Shown: piece by piece, positions 22,607 to 57,117 of the stretch
Numbering within the stretch: the stretch's first letter is position 1
Layout: every line of letters starts with the position of its first letter
Assembly: GCA_039930045.1 (NCBI GenBank)
Contig: JBDSQB010000016.1
Span: forward strand, 124,001-188,000
Direction: 5' to 3'
Origin: Chthoniobacterales bacterium
Lineage (GTDB): Bacteria; Verrucomicrobiota; Verrucomicrobiia; Chthoniobacterales; DASVRZ01
Length of the DNA: 64,000 bases
The notes under the pieces: generated by a model
The model's database searches: none
What the model was told of the DNA's origin: nothing
Seen by the model: the letters and a program-made list of their open reading frames with translations, nothing else
Position numbers and translations under genes: made by a program

Positions 22607-24328
22607 ATGTCCGACACCATTCCCAACGCCCAACGTCTCCATTCCTCCCTCGTTCTCGACGGTGACGAGCGCGCCCCGTCCCGCGCCATGCTTTACGCGG
22701 TCGGGTTTAAAAAAGAGGATTTTGCCAAGTCCCAGATCGGTATTGCTTCCACCTGGAGCATGGTCACGCCGTGCAACATGCACATCGACAAGCTCGCCAT
22801 TGAGGCAGGCAAAGGCGTCGATGCGGCAGGCGGAAAATCGGTCATTTTTAATACCATCACCATTTCCGACGGCATCTCCATGGGCACCGAGGGGATGAAA
22901 TATTCGCTCGTTTCCCGCGAGGTCATCGCTGATTCCATTGAGACCGTTACCGGCTGCGAAGGCTTCGACGGCTTGGTCGCCATCGGCGGCTGCGACAAAA
23001 ACATGCCCGCCTGCATCATGGCCACCGCGCGGCTCAACCGGCCCGCCGTCTTCGTCTATGGCGGCACGATTTTGCCCGGCTGTCTGACTGGGATTCTGGC
23101 GGGTCAAAAAACCGAGCGCCTGCTCGATGTCGTCTCCGTTTTCGAGGCGGTCGGTGCGCACGCCAATGGGAAAATCTCCCGCGACGAGTTGCATGAGATT
23201 GAGTCGAATGCCATTCCCGGAGCCGGTTCCTGCGGCGGCATGTACACTGCCAACACCATGGCCTGCGCCATCGAGGCACTCGGCATGAGCCTGCCCAACA
23301 GCTCTGCGCAAGCCGCCATTTCTCCCGCGAAAATGGCCGACGCCTCGAATGCTGGCGCGGCAGTTCTGCATTTACTGAAGGAAAACATCCGCCCCCTCGA
23401 CATCATGACCCGCGAGGCTTTTGAAAACGCCATCACGGTCGTCATCGCGCTCGGCGGCTCGACCAACGCCGTCATGCACCTCCTCGCCATGGCACATTCG
23501 GCGGGCGTGGCGCTGAAAATCGACGACTTCACCGAGATCGGCAAACGCGTTCCCGTTCTCGCCGACCTCAAGCCGAGCGGCAAGTTTCTCATGTCGCAGC
23601 TCGTCGAAATCGGCGGCATCACCCCGCTCATGAAACAACTGCTCGACGCCGGACTTCTCCATGGGAGTTGCATGACAGTCACCGGCAAAACGGTTGCCGA
23701 AAACCTCGCCAGCGTCGCCCCGTATCCGGCTGGACAGGAAATCATCCGCGCCATCGACAATCCGATCAAAAAGGACAGCCACCTCGTTATTCTCTACGGC
23801 AACCTCGCCACCCAGGGCGCGGTCGCGAAAATTTCCGGAAAAGAGGGCCTGCAATTCACCGGCACGGCCCGTGTTTTCGAGAGTGAAGAAGCCGCCATGC
23901 ACCGCATTCTCGACGGCACCGTCGTCGCGGGCGATGTGATCGTCATCCGCTACGAAGGCCCCAAAGGCGGCCCCGGGATGCGCGAAATGCTAGGGCCCAC
24001 TTCCGCCGTCATGGGCCGCGGCCTCGGCAAAACCGTCGCCCTCATGACCGATGGACGTTTCTCCGGCGGCAGCCACGGTTTCGTCGTTGGCCACGTTACC
24101 CCCGAAGCCTATCTCGGCGGCAACATTGCCCTCATCCAGAACGGCGACGAGATCACGATTGACGCCGAGACCCGCGAGATCAACGTCCACGTTTCCGACG
24201 AAATTCTGGCCGAACGCCGCTCCCACTGGACCCCGCCCGCGCGCCGTTACACCAAGGGCGTGCTCGCCAAATATCAAAAAATGGTCAGCACCGCTAGCCT
24301 CGGAGCCGTCACTGATTTGGACCTCTGA
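22607..24328 (+). CDS. ilvD: Dihydroxy-acid dehydratase
   Basis: Fe-S dehydratase of branched-chain amino acid synthesis, 573 residues. Cluster-ligand regions are visible: [17 protein letters not shown] and [12 protein letters not shown]. The C-terminal half has [20 protein letters not shown], with the conserved Ser. All expected motifs are present and the length is typical. It is divergent from the membrane protein at 21008; a GC-rich inverted-repeat element begins one base after its stop. Confidence 0.96.
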
Positions 24329-24465
24329 CGGGAGCGCACGCGTCTCGCGTGCACTTTTTGGCGTCTCGCCGAAAAGCTTCTTCGGCGAGCTATGCCACGG
24401 TTAGCGCCTGCGAAAGCCACTAGGCGGGACGCCCGCTGGATACACGCGAGACGCGTGCGCTCCCG
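24329..24465. repeat. 137-bp element with perfect 23-bp terminal inverted repeats
   Basis: The ends 24329-24351 and 24443-24465 are perfect 23-bp inverted repeats containing CACGCGTCTCGCGTG. Inside are further small hairpins (GGCG-TCT-CGCC and GCGGG-ACG-CCCGC). It carries no reading frame of note and starts one base after the ilvD stop. A second member with the same ends is at 37022-37132, and both right ends are followed by AAGCA. Non-autonomous MITE-like or REP/BIME-like; no transposase is in the window. Confidence 0.9.
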
Positions 24466-35387: not shown

Positions 35388-35531
35388 GGGACTTCTATCT
35401 AAGAGCAGTTTTGCGGATTTCCATGAGGGACAGCAGAGTGTGGAGAAACAAATCTGGCGTCAAACCTGCAATGCGACTTGGCGGAAGCTCCGCCCTTGCA
35501 CCGTCCGATTTTCGCGGCATTCTCAACCGAG

Positions 35532-37004
35532 ATGAATTCCACCTTCGCGCTTCTCTTCGCCGCCGGCTGCGTTACAGGCGCCGTCATCCTTTGGCTTATC
35601 CTGCGCGCCCGCCATCGCGGTGAAACTCAGCTTGCCGAGGAACGTCTTTCCGCCAAGGAAACCCGGCTCTGCGAACTCCAGGTGGAACTCGCCCGCTGGA
35701 CCACCGAGGCGACTCAGAATCGACTCGAACTCCAATCGGAAAAAATCGCCCGCGCGGGCTTCGAGCAGGCCGCAGCCGAGGTCCCGGCGCTCCGCAGTTT
35801 GCTCGAGACATTCCGCTCCGAGTCGGCTCAACAGCGCGAAAAACTCGCCGACATGGAAGCCCGCTTCGAGACCGAACGTGCCGGTTTTCTGGAAAAGCAG
35901 AAGCTCCTCAACGAGGCCCAGACTCAGATGGCCGACGCCTTCAAGGCACTCTCCGCCGAGGCGTTGCGGACGAACAATCAATCGTTTCTCGAACTGGCCT
36001 CCACGAAACTCACCCAGTTTCAGGACGCCGCAAAGGCCGACTTGGAGAAACGCCAGACCGCCATCGACCAGCTCGTGCTCCCGGTGAAAGAGTCGCTCGG
36101 GAAATTCGACACTCAGATTCAAGAGCTCGAAAAAGCCCGCGTCGGCGCCTACGAAGTCCTCCGCGACCAGGTGAAATCGCTCGGCGAAGGCCAGACGCTC
36201 CTCCGCTCCGAGGCCGCGAATCTGGTGAAAGCCCTCGGCACCCCGCGCGTTCGCGGACGCTGGGGCGAGATCCAGCTCAAACGCGTCGTCGAGATGGCCG
36301 GGATGCTCGACCATTGCGATTTTCAGGAGCAGCAAAGCGTCACCAACGACGAAAACGCCCGGCTCCGGCCCGACCTCATCGCGCGTCTGCCCGGCGGAAA
36401 AAACGTCGTCGTCGACGCCAAAGCCCCGCTCGCCGCCTACCTCGAAGCCATGGAATGCGAGGACGATGCCGCCCGTTTGCTCAAGCTGAAGGAGCACGCG
36501 CGCCACATTCGCGACCACATCAAGGCGCTCTCGGCCAAGTCGTATTGGGACCAATTTCAGCCCGCGCCCGAGCTCGTCGTGCTCTTCATTCCAGGCGAAA
36601 TGTTTTACAGCGCCGCGCTCCAGATCGATCCGACTTTGATCGAAACCGGCATCAACGAGCGGGTCATCCTCGCCACGCCGACCACGCTCATCGCCCTGCT
36701 CAAGGCCTTTGCCTACGGCTGGCGCCAGGAAAATCTGGCCGAGAATTGCCAGAAAATCAGCGAGCAGGCGCGGGAACTTTACAAACGCATCCAAGTCCTC
36801 GGAACGCACTTCAACTCGATTGGCAAAAACCTCCAGCACGCGGTCAACGCCTATAACCAGACTGCCAACTCCCTTGAAAGCCGATTGCTGGTGACAGCGC
36901 GCAAGTTCCAAGACCTTGACGTGGCGACCAGCGAGAAAGAAATCGACCCGGCATTGATCGTGGAAGCCATCCCGAGGACCACAGAAGATCGTCCGCTGCT
37001 TTAA
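35532..37004 (+). CDS. rmuC: DNA recombination protein RmuC
   Basis: RmuC family protein of 490 residues, thought to limit inversions and repeats-mediated rearrangement. ATG 35532 gives an N-terminal membrane helix (about 5-22), a long coiled coil (about 30-190; repeated Glu/Leu/Lys heptads) and the RmuC domain with GRWGEIQLKRVVEMAGML, DLIARLPGGKNVVVDAKAPLAAYL, FIPGEMFYSAAL and ATPTTLIALLKAFAYGWRQE. The domain has a PD-(D/E)XK-like core (VVDAK). It is divergent from the MBOAT operon. Confidence 0.94.
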   Translation: MNSTFALLFAAGCVTGAVILWLILRARHRGETQLAEERLSAKETRLCELQVELARWTTEATQNRLELQSEKIARAGFEQAAAEVPALRSLLETFRSESAQQREKLADMEARFETERAGFLEKQKLLNEAQTQMADAFKALSAEALRTNNQSFLELASTKLTQFQDAAKADLEKRQTAIDQLVLPVKESLGKFDTQIQELEKARVGAYEVLRDQVKSLGEGQTLLRSEAANLVKALGTPRVRGRWGEIQLKRVVEMAGMLDHCDFQEQQSVTNDENARLRPDLIARLPGGKNVVVDAKAPLAAYLEAMECEDDAARLLKLKEHARHIRDHIKALSAKSYWDQFQPAPELVVLFIPGEMFYSAALQIDPTLIETGINERVILATPTTLIALLKAFAYGWRQENLAENCQKISEQARELYKRIQVLGTHFNSIGKNLQHAVNAYNQTANSLESRLLVTARKFQDLDVATSEKEIDPALIVEAIPRTTEDRPLL

Positions 37005-37021: not shown

Positions 37022-37132
37022 CGGGAGTGCACGCGTCTCGCGTGTTCCCTTTTGCGTCTCGCGAAAGGGCTATTTCCGGAAGAACTTTGAGGCGAGACAC
37101 CTCAAAGAACACGCGAGACGCGTGCTCTCCCG
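37022..37132. repeat. 111-bp element with 23-bp terminal inverted repeats (second copy)
   Basis: Ends 37022-37044 and 37110-37132 are inverted repeats with one mismatch and match the ends of the element at 24329-24465. The inner hairpin CCCTTTTGCG-TCT-CGCGAAAGGG is the counterpart of CTTTTTGGCG-TCT-CGCCGAAAAG in the other copy, with changes on both arms. A second inner hairpin (CTTTGAGG/CCTCAAAG) surrounds CGAGACA. The right end is again followed by AAGCA. It starts 18 bp after the rmuC stop. Confidence 0.9.
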
Positions 37133-37228
37133 AAGCAGGAGGCCAAAGACGGCGAGGCTGTCACAACTTTTTCGGCAATGACTTGTTTAAGCCGATGGAG
37201 TAATGTCCGGCCCGACCCCCTTTTCTGC

Positions 37229-38932
37229 ATGACTTTGATCGAACCTCTTACGCGAGTTGCAGTGGAATCCAACTGCGGCGACCCCGAGGCCTGCCGTGTG
37301 GCATTACGTGAGGCGGCGACCCAGCAAAAATCCCTCGTGGCCACCGTTCTCGATGGCAAACTGGCCGATGAAACCCCATTTCTCCAAGGCGTCGCGGGCT
37401 GGCTCAAAATGCCGTGGTGGAGCGAAAATCTGGAAACGATTTCCGCTCCTTTGCGTGATCGGATTCCCGCCCGGCTCGCCTTGCGGCATCGCGTGGTGCC
37501 GGTGAAACACGAGGCCGACGGGTTGACTTTGGTCACATTTGACCCCTTTGATTTGCTGGCCCGCCAGACGGTGGCGCGGGCCGTGGAGGAGCCGGTGCAT
37601 TGGGCCATGGCGACGCGGACGCAGATTTTGCAGACGCTGCGCCAGGGTTACGGCATTGGAGCGGAGACGTTTGAGGAGATCATGGAGGGCCGCGATGTGG
37701 AGGACATGGCCCTGGACATGCGCGAGGAAACGCAGGTGCTGGACCTCGACGACAGCGAGGCCTCGGTGGTGAAATTTGTGAACCAAATCCTGCGCGAAGC
37801 CCTCGAGGAACGCGCCACGGACATTCACGTGGAGCCGCTCCAGGACGATCTCCAGATCCGCTATCGCATCGACGGCGTGCTCCACGAAATTCCCGTGCCG
37901 CCGAAGATCAAAGTGCTCCAGGCGTCGGTCATTTCGCGTCTGAAAATCATGGCGCATCTCGACATCGCGGAGCGCCGTCTGCCGCAGGATGGCCGCATTC
38001 CATTGGAACTCGAGGGCAAGCCGATCGATGTTCGTGTGGCCACGATTCCGTCGGTCTCGGGCGAGAGCGTGAGCCTGCGTTTGCTGGGGCAGGAGCAATT
38101 TGATTTTCGGAAACTGGGCCTGGACGAGGCGAGCGAGGCCAAGATTCGCGCGCTGCTGGCGATGCCAAATGGGATCATCCTCGTCACCGGACCGACCGGT
38201 TGCGGCAAATCGACTTCGCTTTACACTTTTCTCAGCAGCCTGAACACGAAGGAACGGCGCATCGTTACCATCGAGGACCCGGTCGAGCACAAGATTTCTG
38301 GCGTCATCCAGATCGCGGTGAAACCCGAGATCGACCTGACGTTTGCGCGCGGGTTGCGGGCGATTCTGCGCGGCGATCCGAACGTCATCATGGTCGGAGA
38401 AATGCGCGACGTGGAGACGACCGAGATCGCCATCCGGGGCGCGCTCACGGGTCACTTGGTCTTCAGCACGCTGCACACAAACGATGCCATCGGCGGCATC
38501 ACGCGTCTGATTGACATGGGAGTCGAGGCGTTTCTGGTCGCGGCCTCGGTGCGCTGCTTTATCGCGCAACGTCTGGTGCGTCGGCTCTGTCCGTTTTGCA
38601 AAAAACCTGCGACCCACTCCCATGCGTATCTGGCCCAGGTCGGATTTCCGATGGATCACGCGGACCATATTTTCTCGGCGAACGGTTGCGACCGCTGCCG
38701 GCACACTGGTTACGAGGGACGCACGGCGATTTTTGAAATTGCGATGGTCACCGAGCGGATGCAGGACTTGATCACGCAACGAAAATCGGCGGCGACGATG
38801 AAGAGTCTGGCGATCGAGGAAGGCATGGTGCCGTTGCGCCGGTTTGGCTGGGAAAAAGTGATCGACGGCACGACCACAGTCGAAGAAGTGTTGCGCGTGA
38901 CTACGGCGGATGTGGACGTTCTCGACGAATAG
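37229..38932 (+). CDS. GspE/PilB-type secretion/pilus assembly ATPase
   Basis: Assembly ATPase of type II secretion or type IV pili, about 567 residues. An N-terminal GspE_N/MshEN-like region (about 1-160) precedes the catalytic core. Motifs: DIHVEPLQDDLQIRYRIDG, Walker A GPTGCGKST, the Asp box TIEDPVE, Walker B as VIMVGEMRDVETTEIA, and the His box FSTLHTNDA. A C-terminal CPFC...CDRC four-cysteine zinc site is intact. ATG 37229 (MTLIEPL) is preferred over an upstream in-frame start. gspF follows by 5 bp; no pilin or secretin is adjacent. Confidence 0.93.
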   Translation: MTLIEPLTRVAVESNCGDPEACRVALREAATQQKSLVATVLDGKLADETPFLQGVAGWLKMPWWSENLETISAPLRDRIPARLALRHRVVPVKHEADGLTLVTFDPFDLLARQTVARAVEEPVHWAMATRTQILQTLRQGYGIGAETFEEIMEGRDVEDMALDMREETQVLDLDDSEASVVKFVNQILREALEERATDIHVEPLQDDLQIRYRIDGVLHEIPVPPKIKVLQASVISRLKIMAHLDIAERRLPQDGRIPLELEGKPIDVRVATIPSVSGESVSLRLLGQEQFDFRKLGLDEASEAKIRALLAMPNGIILVTGPTGCGKSTSLYTFLSSLNTKERRIVTIEDPVEHKISGVIQIAVKPEIDLTFARGLRAILRGDPNVIMVGEMRDVETTEIAIRGALTGHLVFSTLHTNDAIGGITRLIDMGVEAFLVAASVRCFIAQRLVRRLCPFCKKPATHSHAYLAQVGFPMDHADHIFSANGCDRCRHTGYEGRTAIFEIAMVTERMQDLITQRKSAATMKSLAIEEGMVPLRRFGWEKVIDGTTTVEEVLRVTTADVDVLDE

Positions 38933-53979: not shown

Positions 53980-54011
53980 CCAGAACCTCGCCATCCCGTC
54001 CACGCGGCAAC

Positions 54012-54059
54012 ATGGAGCCGGCTATCGGGCTCGAACCGATGACCTGCTGATTACAAATC
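54012..54059. repeat. Left attachment-site repeat (tRNA-Thr 3' fragment)
   Basis: These 48 bp are identical to 57041-57088, the 3' part of tRNA-Thr from the anticodon loop through the encoded CCA. Sequence identity stops exactly at both ends. The far-end remnant of a tRNA-targeted integration. Confidence 0.93.
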
Positions 54060-54149: not shown

Positions 54150-55661
54150 ATGAGTGACTGGGGATCTGTTGCGTCTCGGCTGACTGCTGGCAATGGCTAC
54201 CCCGGCGGCGTTGTCGGGTCGGCAAATAGCCTGAGTCCCACGAAAGGCGCGTCAGGCTTACAGATTGGCTCGACACAGGCAGGCGCGGAGCTGGGGCGAT
54301 TGCCGACGAAGGAGGACATCGGCGGCGTTGGCTTCCAGCGGATCGCAACGGATGGCGGGCAACCGGACCCAAGAGGCGGCGTGTCAGCAAATCGGCCAGC
54401 CTCGGACATTCCAGACTCTGGAAAACGTCGTTACACTCTGCGGCGTGGCCTTCACAGCGGACTTGAGATCAAACTGACGCCGCAAGGCGTCAGGAAAGCA
54501 CTTCCTGCGCCTCCACGCGCATTCACCTACCACGCACAGCCTAAACGCGATGCAGCAGCCGCACAGGGCGAGAAATATGGTGTTTCGGCGTCGTCGGCGT
54601 TAGTCGGCCACGGAGTGGCCGGCGAAGCCGATGCGCTTCCTTGTCTATTTAGAAACAACTGCACCGATTCCATAGGAGAACCGGTGCGGAAGCTGACCGG
54701 TGCGGAGCGGAAACGCGCTCACACGTGCATGGAAAATGCGCAGCATTTCATTAATCATTACGGCCTCGAAAACTGCGGGTTTCTGACAATCACGCACGCC
54801 GAGGACGGACCAATCGGCTTCGGCGAATTTCAGCGGCGTCTCCACTCCGCCATGACACATTTCCTCCGGCCAGCCTTCGACGATTACATGGGCGCACTCG
54901 AATTTGCCAAACGGGAACACCTCCATTTCATCGTGGCGTGCGGAACGGATATCAGAACTGGCTTCGACTTCGATCATTACCACGAGACGATGATCTGGCA
55001 AAAAAGCGGGCGCAAAGGCCCGAAGCCGGTTGGGAACTTGAACCGCTGCGAATGGCTCAAGGAAATGCACGCGTCCTTGTGTGACAGATTGCCAGATTAC
55101 GGGCTAGGACGCGCGGAACTGGTCCCAATCTGGAAAAGTGCTGAGGCAGTCGGATACTACCTCGGCGGCTACCTCTCGAAGTCGATCCCGAACCGACTCC
55201 CGGAACACAAAGGCGCAAGGTTCATGCGCTACAGCAAAACCGCTCCTCGGATCGTCAAGGGTAGCTTTGCATGGCTGGGTGTTCACTCATGGCTCTGGCG
55301 ACAAAAACTGGCTACTTTCGCAGCACACCACGACTGCAAAGACGAGGCGGATTTGAAGTCAATCTTTGGCACGCACTGGGCCTATCACATGAGAGCCGCA
55401 ATCCTCGCAACGGATTTGTCCTGGTATTTAACGGGGCACCACGCAAAGGCTGATGGCAGGGGAGACGAAAACATGGACTTGGACGCTCCGTATTACCCGC
55501 CAGCCCGCCCGATGACAGGCAGGGAAGTGAGAAAAATGCTTAATGATATCGAAATCAAAAAGATAGTCGAAGCGCATCCGGTTCACTTAAGGGAAACGAG
55601 GGAATCTCCGGGTTACCAACAGGCGATAGCGGAGTGGGAAAGCTACAACCGGCCCTTCTAG
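54150..55661 (+). CDS. HUH-type rolling-circle replication initiator (Rep)
   Basis: Frame of 503 residues. From about residue 190 it carries HUH endonuclease features: FLTITH (211-216, motif 1), the H-L-H metal motif in EHLHFIVACG (257-259), and a Tyr motif GYYLGGYLSK with tyrosines 336, 337 and 341 and Lys 344. This fits a replication initiator that nicks one strand and stays bound through Tyr. The first ~150 residues look unlike any domain and could be non-coding; an internal ATG at 54729 (MENAQHF) is an alternative start. Relatives are found in plasmids and ssDNA phages. Confidence 0.78.
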   Translation: MSDWGSVASRLTAGNGYPGGVVGSANSLSPTKGASGLQIGSTQAGAELGRLPTKEDIGGVGFQRIATDGGQPDPRGGVSANRPASDIPDSGKRRYTLRRGLHSGLEIKLTPQGVRKALPAPPRAFTYHAQPKRDAAAAQGEKYGVSASSALVGHGVAGEADALPCLFRNNCTDSIGEPVRKLTGAERKRAHTCMENAQHFINHYGLENCGFLTITHAEDGPIGFGEFQRRLHSAMTHFLRPAFDDYMGALEFAKREHLHFIVACGTDIRTGFDFDHYHETMIWQKSGRKGPKPVGNLNRCEWLKEMHASLCDRLPDYGLGRAELVPIWKSAEAVGYYLGGYLSKSIPNRLPEHKGARFMRYSKTAPRIVKGSFAWLGVHSWLWRQKLATFAAHHDCKDEADLKSIFGTHWAYHMRAAILATDLSWYLTGHHAKADGRGDENMDLDAPYYPPARPMTGREVRKMLNDIEIKKIVEAHPVHLRETRESPGYQQAIAEWESYNRPF

Positions 55662-55744: not shown

Positions 55745-55993
55745 ATGAAATACAGCGACATCATTTGCATTCCGCCTTCTGCAAGACTTATCCGTCTTGA
55801 GGCAGCTGCTGCTTACGTGGCAGGAGAACAAAACTTAAAAGGAGCGGTGCAAGCAGGTTGGTTCAAGCCTGTGGTAAAACATAAGGGCTGTACCGCATAC
55901 GATGTGAGAGACTTAGATGTCGCGATAGACCGCGCAAAGCTGGATGGAGAATGGCCCAAGTGTCAGCCTGCGCGGTCAATGTCAGAGTCCTGA
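55745..55993 (+). CDS. Small helix-turn-helix protein, excisionase-like
   Basis: Protein of 82 residues. Residues about 15-70 (RLIRLEAAAAYVAGEQNLKGAVQAGWFKPVVK...AYDVRDLDVAIDRA) resemble a MerR/excisionase-type winged HTH: a first helix with the AAAYV turn, a second helix, a wing with KHKGCTAYDV and a final helix. Such proteins direct excision by integrases and repress element genes. Its 3' end overlaps the convergent integrase end by 31 bp, typical of xis/int pairs. A plausible start at ATG 55745 has weak Shine-Dalgarno potential. Confidence 0.75.
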   Translation: MKYSDIICIPPSARLIRLEAAAAYVAGEQNLKGAVQAGWFKPVVKHKGCTAYDVRDLDVAIDRAKLDGEWPKCQPARSMSES

Positions 55994-56967
55994 GCAATCA
56001 GATGAGCATAATGCCGCTCTACCACTTGGATGCCATCGCCCAGCCAGATGGCTGTCTTGGACATCGAAACTCCAGCACTAACCAGCAAGCTGGCAAAGGT
56101 GTGTCTCATGGTGTGGGCGGTGACCCACTCACAGCCTTGCTCGGCCATATAGTCATCGAAAGGACGACGGAAATCATAACGATATTCGCTAACTCCATGC
56201 GCGACATCCGGTTTCACAATGTAGCCGTCACAGCGGGGAATACTGGCAAGAAAAGCCTCCAACCTTTTGGAAAGGGGAATGGTGCGCCCTTTTCGGTTCT
56301 TGGTTTGAAAAGTATCTGTGTTTTGTACTCGCAGCAGCCCCGCGTTCAGATCAACCCAGTTCCACCTGGCTTCGATGATTTCATTTTTTCTAAGACCTGC
56401 ATGGAAGCCAAGGTTCAGAATCAATGCCATTTCTGGACTCGGCGCATTCTCCAGCAACTGATTTCGCAATTCAGGCGAGCAGAAACGCTCTTTGGCAAGT
56501 TCCGAGACTTTCGCCATTCGGAAGTTGAACGGGTTTTGGCGGATCTTGCCTTCTGCCAAAAGCCAAGAAAAAAAGCCTTTCAAAGCTCGCACATACGACT
56601 GTGCGGCGGCTTCGGTCATCCGGGCGCGTTGCTCCGCAAACCACCGTTTTGTCACATTTTCTGTCACAGCAACGACGCTGATGCTTCCAATGTCGCCGAT
56701 AAACTGGAAAATAATTCGTCGAGACCACGAGCTGGTTTTCTTGCTGTGGCGTCCTTCCTTGGCTCGGGAATTCAAATACTTCTCCGCCATAGCTTCCAGC
56801 GTGTGCTTGTCGTCGCTAGGGACGCTTCCCTTGATCTCTACTGCCCTCGTAATAGCCGAGGAAAGATCGGCGGTTTGCAGGCTGAAAAATTGCCGTTTTC
56901 CTCCTGTTTGGATCGCAAGCCAGTAAACAGAGCCTCGGAGGTAAATGCCTTTGGGAAGATTCTTCAC
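55963..56967 (-). CDS. Tyrosine recombinase/integrase
   Basis: Integrase of 334 residues. N-terminal arm-binding part (about 1-50), core-binding helical domain (about 55-150) and catalytic domain (about 155-325). Catalytic residues: R193 in HAGLRKNEI, K in TKNRKGRTIPLS (about 223-226), H285-x-x-R288 in HTMRHTFAS, and the nucleophile Y320 in VERHYAHL. The usual Gly-His in the second box is Gly-Asp here, which also occurs in active phage integrases. It lies next to the right attachment repeat, with two TGTCACACTTT sites upstream of its start. Confidence 0.94.
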   Translation of the reverse strand: MKNLPKGIYLRGSVYWLAIQTGGKRQFFSLQTADLSSAITRAVEIKGSVPSDDKHTLEAMAEKYLNSRAKEGRHSKKTSSWSRRIIFQFIGDIGSISVVAVTENVTKRWFAEQRARMTEAAAQSYVRALKGFFSWLLAEGKIRQNPFNFRMAKVSELAKERFCSPELRNQLLENAPSPEMALILNLGFHAGLRKNEIIEARWNWVDLNAGLLRVQNTDTFQTKNRKGRTIPLSKRLEAFLASIPRCDGYIVKPDVAHGVSEYRYDFRRPFDDYMAEQGCEWVTAHTMRHTFASLLVSAGVSMSKTAIWLGDGIQVVERHYAHLIAQDSDIDRAG

Positions 56968-56972
56968 GCAAG

Positions 56973-56997
56973 TGTCACACTTTCGCTGTCACACTTT
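56973..56997 (+). promoter_or_regulatory. Paired TGTCACACTTT sites, right end
   Basis: Two copies of TGTCACACTTT start at 56973 and 56987 (14-bp spacing), between the integrase start (56967) and the right attachment repeat. A third copy is near the left end. They fit arm-type integrase sites or an integrase operator. Confidence 0.6.
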
Positions 56998-57040
56998 CAA
57001 AGTCAAACCAGAGCAAAGCAGCCCTCTCTAGAGGGAAAAT

Positions 57041-57088
57041 ATGGAGCCGGCTATCGGGCTCGAACCGATGACCTGCTGATTACAAATC
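57041..57088. repeat. Right attachment-site repeat (inside tRNA-Thr)
   Basis: Identical 48-bp partner of 54012-54059 within the intact tRNA. The flanking palindrome CTGATT-ACA-AATCAG, formed by the anticodon stem, is the probable core where strand exchange occurs. Confidence 0.93.
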
Positions 57089-57117
57089 AGCTGCTCTACC
57101 AACTGAGCTAAGCCGGC
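57042..57117 (-). tRNA. tRNA-Thr (anticodon TGT), CCA encoded
   Basis: Cloverleaf with acceptor arms GCCGGCT/AGCCGGC, D-arm AGCTCAGTTGGTAGAGC, anticodon loop TTTGTAA giving UGU, and T-arm GGTTCGAGCC. The 3' CCA is encoded (57042-57044). The gene is intact and serves as the integration site of the element that occupies lower coordinates. Confidence 0.96.

Follow-up and report, generated by a model that had tools for sequence, protein, structure and literature searches.

A miniature REPIN-like element with interchangeable paired stems in a Chthoniobacterales bacterium and its putative parent transposase inside recG

The locus studied here lies in a stretch of 64,000 nucleotides from a Chthoniobacterales bacterium (the window; contig JBDSQB010000016.1, positions 124,001 to 188,000) and is occupied by a compact palindromic element, copy 2, located between an RmuC family gene and a type II/IV secretion ATPase gene (Table 1). 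Its boundaries had been placed correctly in a preliminary description, in which it was compared to a second element of the same window, copy 1. The two 41-nt arms of copy 2 (37022-37062 and 37092-37132) are 83% complementary and form a near-palindrome. The predicted folding energy is -71.9 kcal/mol for the + strand (z -9.8) and -73.2 kcal/mol for the - strand (z -11.5), values which none of 200 shuffles reached on either strand. An Rfam scan of the window found two tRNAs only and no known RNA family at copy 2. Two further repeats of the window are recorded here. A 98% direct repeat (54009-54059 and 57038-57088), which is the 3' part of a tRNA-Thr gene (57042-57117, - strand), flanks about 3 kb and has the look of attachment sites that bound an integrated element; neither of the two ORFs inside (54150-55661, 55951-57111) has a Pfam match. 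About seven direct repeats of AAACGTCT with a 21-nt period (734-868) are found upstream of an ORF at 869 and resemble an iteron-like or regulator-binding array.

Table 1. Copy 2, copy 1 and neighbouring genes in the window.
Feature	Position	Strand	Remarks
Copy 2, complete miniature element	37022..37132	none	111 nt
Copy 2, left foot	37023..37027	+	GGGAG (GGAG; position equivalent to the GTAG foot of REPs)
Copy 2, left outer (REP-like) hairpin	37030..37044	+	CACGCG-TCT-CGCGTG
Copy 2, left inner hairpin	37047..37069	+	type A, CCCTTTTGCG-TCT-CGCGAAAGGG
Copy 2, right inner hairpin	37085..37107	-	type B, CTTTGAGGTG-TCT-CGCCTCAAAG, read on - strand
Copy 2, right outer (REP-like) hairpin	37110..37124	-	left outer hairpin inverted
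Copy 2, right foot	37127..37131	-	GGGAG, read on - strand
Copy 1, complete miniature element	24329..24465	none	137 nt; inner types F (left), C-like (right)
Copy 1, left inner hairpin	24354..24376	+	type F, CTTTTTGGCG-TCT-CGCCGAAAAG
Copy 1, right inner hairpin	24417..24439	-	slightly decayed C type, CCAGCGGGCG-TCC-CGCCTAGTGG, one uncompensated change
RmuC family gene	35478..37004	+	upstream of copy 2; stop codon 17 nt ahead of copy 2
Type II/IV secretion ATPase gene	37178..38932	+	T2SSE + MshEN; start 45 nt past copy 2
ILVD_EDD dehydratase gene	22607..24328	+	ahead of copy 1; stop codon abuts copy 1

Copy 2 belongs to a family which is spread over its own genome (3.52 Mb, 23 contigs). Comparison of copy 2 with this genome yielded 81 alignments, many of them representing one place on both strands. 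The stretches around all places with a recognisable end hold 95 ends and 38 distinct complete elements, 37 of them miniature (91-192 nt) and one of 572 nt. A typical end reads CGGGAG-YG-CACGCG-TCT-CGCGTG and is followed by 2-4 nt and a 23-nt inner hairpin with the apex GTC[TC]C. The two ends of an element are inverted, the apices along the + strand being GTCTC, GTCTC, GAGAC and GAGAC. Like REPINs, the family has two inverted REP-like hairpins with a spacer between them and multiple, mainly extragenic copies, and like MITEs it has terminal inverted repeats, no coding capacity and a related autonomous element. The five nucleotides outside the ends follow TTCYY and are able to pair with GGGA of the foot at 49 of the 95 ends, compared to a background of 3%, as expected if the foot guides cleavage (PMC8266576, on another REP system). 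This pyrimidine flank is also compatible with single-stranded cleavage by a RAYT at CT beside the REP. AAGCA, noted previously at the right end of both copies, is not a family feature, being present at seven of the 95 ends. Target-site duplications are not expected for Y1 transposases.

Variants of the family were found as well. In one subfamily (L043, L044, L057, L058, L059) the apex GACTC replaces GTCTC and the ends read GGGGAG; L043 and L044 are complete copies in which the apex is changed in all four hairpins. No cognate RAYT of the GACTC subfamily was found in this genome. Three copies (L026, L029, L041) have a variant end, their right outer hairpin being replaced by a common stretch, CGAACCG.CAGAT.GCCTCGCCAAT...CCACCGAGG.AAACGCGTG. 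At L018:1360-1550 and L019:1359-1550 another palindromic sequence (TTTGCTT...GGTTCGCC) splits a type B inner hairpin, which has the look of a nested insertion. Contigs C1 (end of L017) and C17 (start of L027) overlap by 94 identical bases inside one element copy and are therefore probably neighbours in the genome.

Concerning an autonomous partner, a search of the genome with the Y1 transposase family PF01797 gave a single match (C1:49515-49772), which sits between ends of the copy 2 type in a 572-bp element (C1:49403-49974 = L032:1004-1575). Judged by sequence, the parent of the miniature copies is this element, which has the same ends and encodes the only RAYT found in the genome; a second, much weaker RAYT protein similarity covers 54 residues (C3:106456, E 2e-6). 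The encoded protein passes the NCBIfam model of REP-associated tyrosine transposases (NF047646) with 91.8 bits at a cut-off of 80. As for REPINs, a cognate RAYT is thus flanked by the same REPs in the same genome. No solved structure matched the parent RAYT by sequence, and its predicted structure is most similar to 4er8, the complex of a RAYT with a REP hairpin. The left inner hairpin of the parent is unique, and the right one is of type A, as in many miniature copies. We surveyed the parent RAYT and its relatives (91 RAYTs, 182 ends) together with 174 control stretches of the hosts. A foot GG[TGA]AG followed by a hairpin is present at 140 of the 182 RAYT ends versus eight of the controls. 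The foot is GGGAG at 103, GGTAG at 35 and GGAAG at two of these ends, which indicates that the GGAG of the present genome takes the place of GTAG in classical REPs. The HuH motif is kept in all 91 family members and the Y..NP motif in 85.

Copies 1 and 2 had been reported to differ in both arms of the inner hairpin while both versions pair, and this is correct. It had been taken as a sign of selection on, or of a mechanism maintaining, folded DNA or RNA, to be checked by covariation over all copies. Inner hairpins were selected genome-wide by the apex motif alone, pairing being ignored, and 37 distinct sequences from 82 ends were obtained. Covariation is strong: 94.3% of the stem cells are paired versus 65.8 +/- 1.7% with the 3' letters shuffled, 108 cells are changed on both sides versus 33 in the shuffles, and the covariation score is 0.779 versus 0.225, figures which come from related copies and are not independent, since the copies share ancestry and the shuffles overstate their independence. 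Pairing was 45-50% with partners slid by one to three columns. A random spectrum of mutations over stems and loops, named beforehand as evidence to the contrary, was not seen; apex and foot are conserved, the stems are paired, and the inner apex is G-N-C-N-C in all hairpins.

The inner hairpins fall into recurrent types. Type A (CCCTTTTGC/GCGAAAGGG) is present at 24 ends, variants included, type B (CTTTGAGGT/GCCTCAAAG) at 13 and type C (CCAGCGG[AG]C/G[TC]CCG[AG]TGG) at about 23, in addition to types D, E and F and rarer ones. Copy 1 combines F with a slightly decayed C and copy 2 combines A with B, and these types recur in other copies. Since the two copies carry different recurrent types, the contrast seen between them stands as paired changes and has to be refined to a difference of whole cassettes (A versus F on the left, B versus C-type on the right) rather than of single compensated bases. 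Six of six variants of type A, the commonest type, are one-sided or in the loop and none is compensated, which speaks for selection at copying rather than for maintenance of pairing site by site in the genome. The types occupy either position in many combinations. Yet the same inner type was found at both ends in none of 30 elements with 5.2 expected (P 0.0025, shared ancestry included and amplified lineages counted). Among 53 related elements from across the phylum, four have one and the same inner hairpin at their two ends. A heterodimer preference without obvious explanation is noted for REPs by Di Nocera et al. (PMC3733652), and the present family shows heterotypic ends strictly in its own genome. 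Bertels and Rainey described compensatory changes in REPIN hairpins (PMC3116915), and Di Nocera et al. reported REP families with alternative complementary stems (PMC3733652). Paired and compensated REPIN stems are therefore already published and this part is not new. New details for copy 2 are that the REP and the inner hairpin have one apex in common and that the inner stems are exchangeable cassettes which hardly ever coincide between the two ends of an element.

Copy 2 is very probably a non-autonomous, REPIN/MITE-like mobile element that depends on a RAYT, whereby we infer both transposition and binding. It probably originated by internal deletion of a RAYT (HuH/Y1 type) element and would be moved in trans by the RAYT. 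The RAYT would bind the hairpins as single-stranded DNA and read foot, apex and shape, with little regard to the sequence of the stem. For the RAYTs of E. coli, S. maltophilia and Marinomonas the foot matters, loop bases matter in two of the three, and stem sequence matters less (PMC8266576). Reading of foot, apex and shape would result in the pattern of a fixed foot and apex with free but paired stems. Stems may drift only when both arms change; copies with broken hairpins would stop moving, and copies with new paired stems would be amplified and their hairpins reassorted. The unlike inner hairpins of the two ends may be due to a need for each end to fold by itself, or to the loss of long perfect palindromes. 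Folded single-stranded DNA read by a RAYT is the likeliest reason for the paired stems, and a transposase substrate is the most economical reading, any effect on mRNA being secondary. Against it speak the foot GGAG instead of GTAG and the second hairpin, which is outside the standard REP definition, together with the shared ancestry behind the covariation and heterotypic-end figures.

The genomic position of the copies bears on an alternative in which the elements are RNA structures selected by the host at mRNA 3' ends, as stabilisers or bidirectional terminators, and in which the paired changes come from selection on the RNA fold at each site. Gene context was taken from a simple home-made codon-usage gene finder. 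Of the 37 complete copies, convergent gene pairs flank 17, tandem pairs 15 and a divergent pair one, and four are inside called frames. Divergent gaps make up about 54% of the intergenic bases in the window and contain one of the 33 clearly intergenic copies (P 3e-10), and many copies start 2-22 nt past a stop codon. The location at 3' ends that had been noted for two copies is thus real and family-wide, and RNA of the element would be extremely stable, all of which favours a function in mRNA. However, a 3'-end bias can also arise when copies that land in promoters are lost; the same bias is reported for REPs (PMC3733652), and avoidance of promoters and coding sequence likewise accounts for it. 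An intrinsic terminator at the element was rejected: a T-run after it is absent, the right flank is purine-rich, and the terminator-like hits of this region, one of which falls within the element itself, amount to short matches to a consensus. The uncompensated variants of type A and the related copies in frame within metH and recG also argue against selection on RNA at each site, which we regard as unlikely.

Strong hairpins are known sites of template switching and quasipalindrome correction. Such a mutational process could keep the arms complementary without selection, in line with the numerous paired changes and near perfect stems, and could be the source of new stem types. Nevertheless, type A variants remain uncorrected, the stems form a restricted pool of recurring types instead of a cloud of pairwise corrections, and the conserved apex and foot are not predicted by correction alone; as the sole cause, this process appears improbable to the same degree as selection on RNA. 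That likeness and pairing are due to chance or to the palindrome bias of a GC-rich genome is refuted to near certainty by fold z-scores of about -10 and -11, by 95 homologous ends and by the shuffled and slid controls. In sum, of the earlier proposal of selection on or maintenance of folded DNA or RNA, a process acting on a folded strand is upheld by stems which vary and yet pair and by the conserved apex and foot. A 3'-UTR or mRNA decay function as the cause is not, in view of ends that flank a RAYT gene, a design recurring phylum-wide at RAYT ends, the one-sided variants, the missing T-run and the in-frame copies.

The parent RAYT element is located in frame in recG. A single frame of 938 codons reads RecG - GSARVSRV... 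- RAYT - ...TRDACAP - RecG, the junction peptides GSARVSR... and ...TRDACAP being encoded by the REPs. RecG with the insert passes its own NCBIfam equivalog cut-off (768 versus 718). In terms of the solved RecG 1gm5, the insert falls between residues 456 and 474, in a loop whose length varies. Most relatives have a RecG frame of normal size, commonly 690-750 codons; an occupied frame (896-989 codons) is found in a few. A model of the fused protein predicts folded RecG halves and a RAYT, with REP-encoded linkers of very low confidence. Among 91 RAYT loci, comprising the parent and its nearest relatives, 86 are in frame within host proteins (RecG 34, AlaRS 34 at two sites, MetH 10 at two sites, ThrRS 7, CarB 1) and five are free-standing. 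An order-wide search placed 80 of 89 RAYT matches in open frames of at least 463 codons and nine in frames of 211-271 codons, the hosts being identified for part of them. Host identities of the tested in-frame RAYTs were confirmed by NCBIfam, and LeuRS, ValRS and TsaC frames were seen to contain more distant RAYTs. In the CarB frame with a RAYT (L169, G009), further in-frame palindrome-derived peptides are present (FQPEPSGKHPACPS, SGKMPELPA).

The tree of RAYT domains clusters by host site (19 changes versus 47 shuffled). A single ancient insertion per host site was rejected for the residents of RecG, AlaRS site A and ThrRS (AU tests, p 4e-10, 1.5e-8 and 0.0016). The dN/dS of embedded RAYT domains is about 0.03-0.21, which is within the range of the hosts, with several dS values near saturation. 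These sequence comparisons indicate that embedded RAYTs are at recurrent sites and under purifying selection. In the genome of copy 2, a miniature copy is in frame in metH (L037:1438-1543, C3), at the site which a complete RAYT occupies in other species. A RAYT insertion in AlaRS is also present in the record of an isolate, Ereboglobus sp. PH5-10 (L107); in-frame RAYTs are thus not merely an artefact of metagenome binning. It is likely that this clade of RAYTs in Verrucomicrobiota consists mainly of translated passenger domains in frame in housekeeping enzymes (RecG, AlaRS, ThrRS, MetH, CarB), which would have entered the same permissive sites repeatedly. The REP ends would serve as flexible linkers, expression would be borrowed from the host and deletion would be hard, which would amount to an intein-like mode of existence, and miniature elements such as copy 2 would be non-coding offspring. 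Among open-licence full texts we found no description of RAYTs in frame in housekeeping genes, and the in-frame position of the parent RAYT inside recG looks new.

Even though the paired stems of copy 2 are explained by a known class, the REPINs, the in-frame RAYTs outweigh this result in importance. Transposases kept for long in frame within housekeeping enzymes would represent a new lifestyle of prokaryotic transposons. They open to experiment the question of how RAYTs are expressed and maintained. Moreover, they are a warning that database entries of RecG, AlaRS and similar proteins in fused form represent transposon insertions.

Among known systems, REPINs and BIMEs (Bertels and Rainey 2011, PMC3116915) resemble the present family in having two inverted REP-like ends separated by a variable spacer, extragenic copies numbering in the tens, compensatory hairpin changes and a cognate RAYT that has these ends too. 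Unlike them, the present family has a GGAG foot, a second hairpin with the same apex at each end, and a cognate RAYT in frame inside recG and not free-standing. TIRYTs and TIRtrons with double palindromic TIRs (Di Nocera 2013, PMC3733652) are alike in a tyrosine transposase between long inverted repeats with two self-complementary tracts and in a moderately abundant repeat family in the genome; they differ in that the present outer tract is itself a foot-plus-hairpin REP, and no in-gene transposase is described in the available text. The TnpA-REP/RAYT family (NF047646; structure 4er8) has the same HuH and Y motifs, fold and REP-hairpin ends, whereas the present RAYTs are encoded within housekeeping enzymes as an internal domain. 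In-frame insertion of palindromic mobile elements into protein genes is likewise known from the Rickettsia palindromic elements (RPE) and from intragenic REPs of Opitutus (PMC10969869, PMC3733652); those elements are short and lack a transposase, whereas the present family additionally brings an entire transposase in frame.
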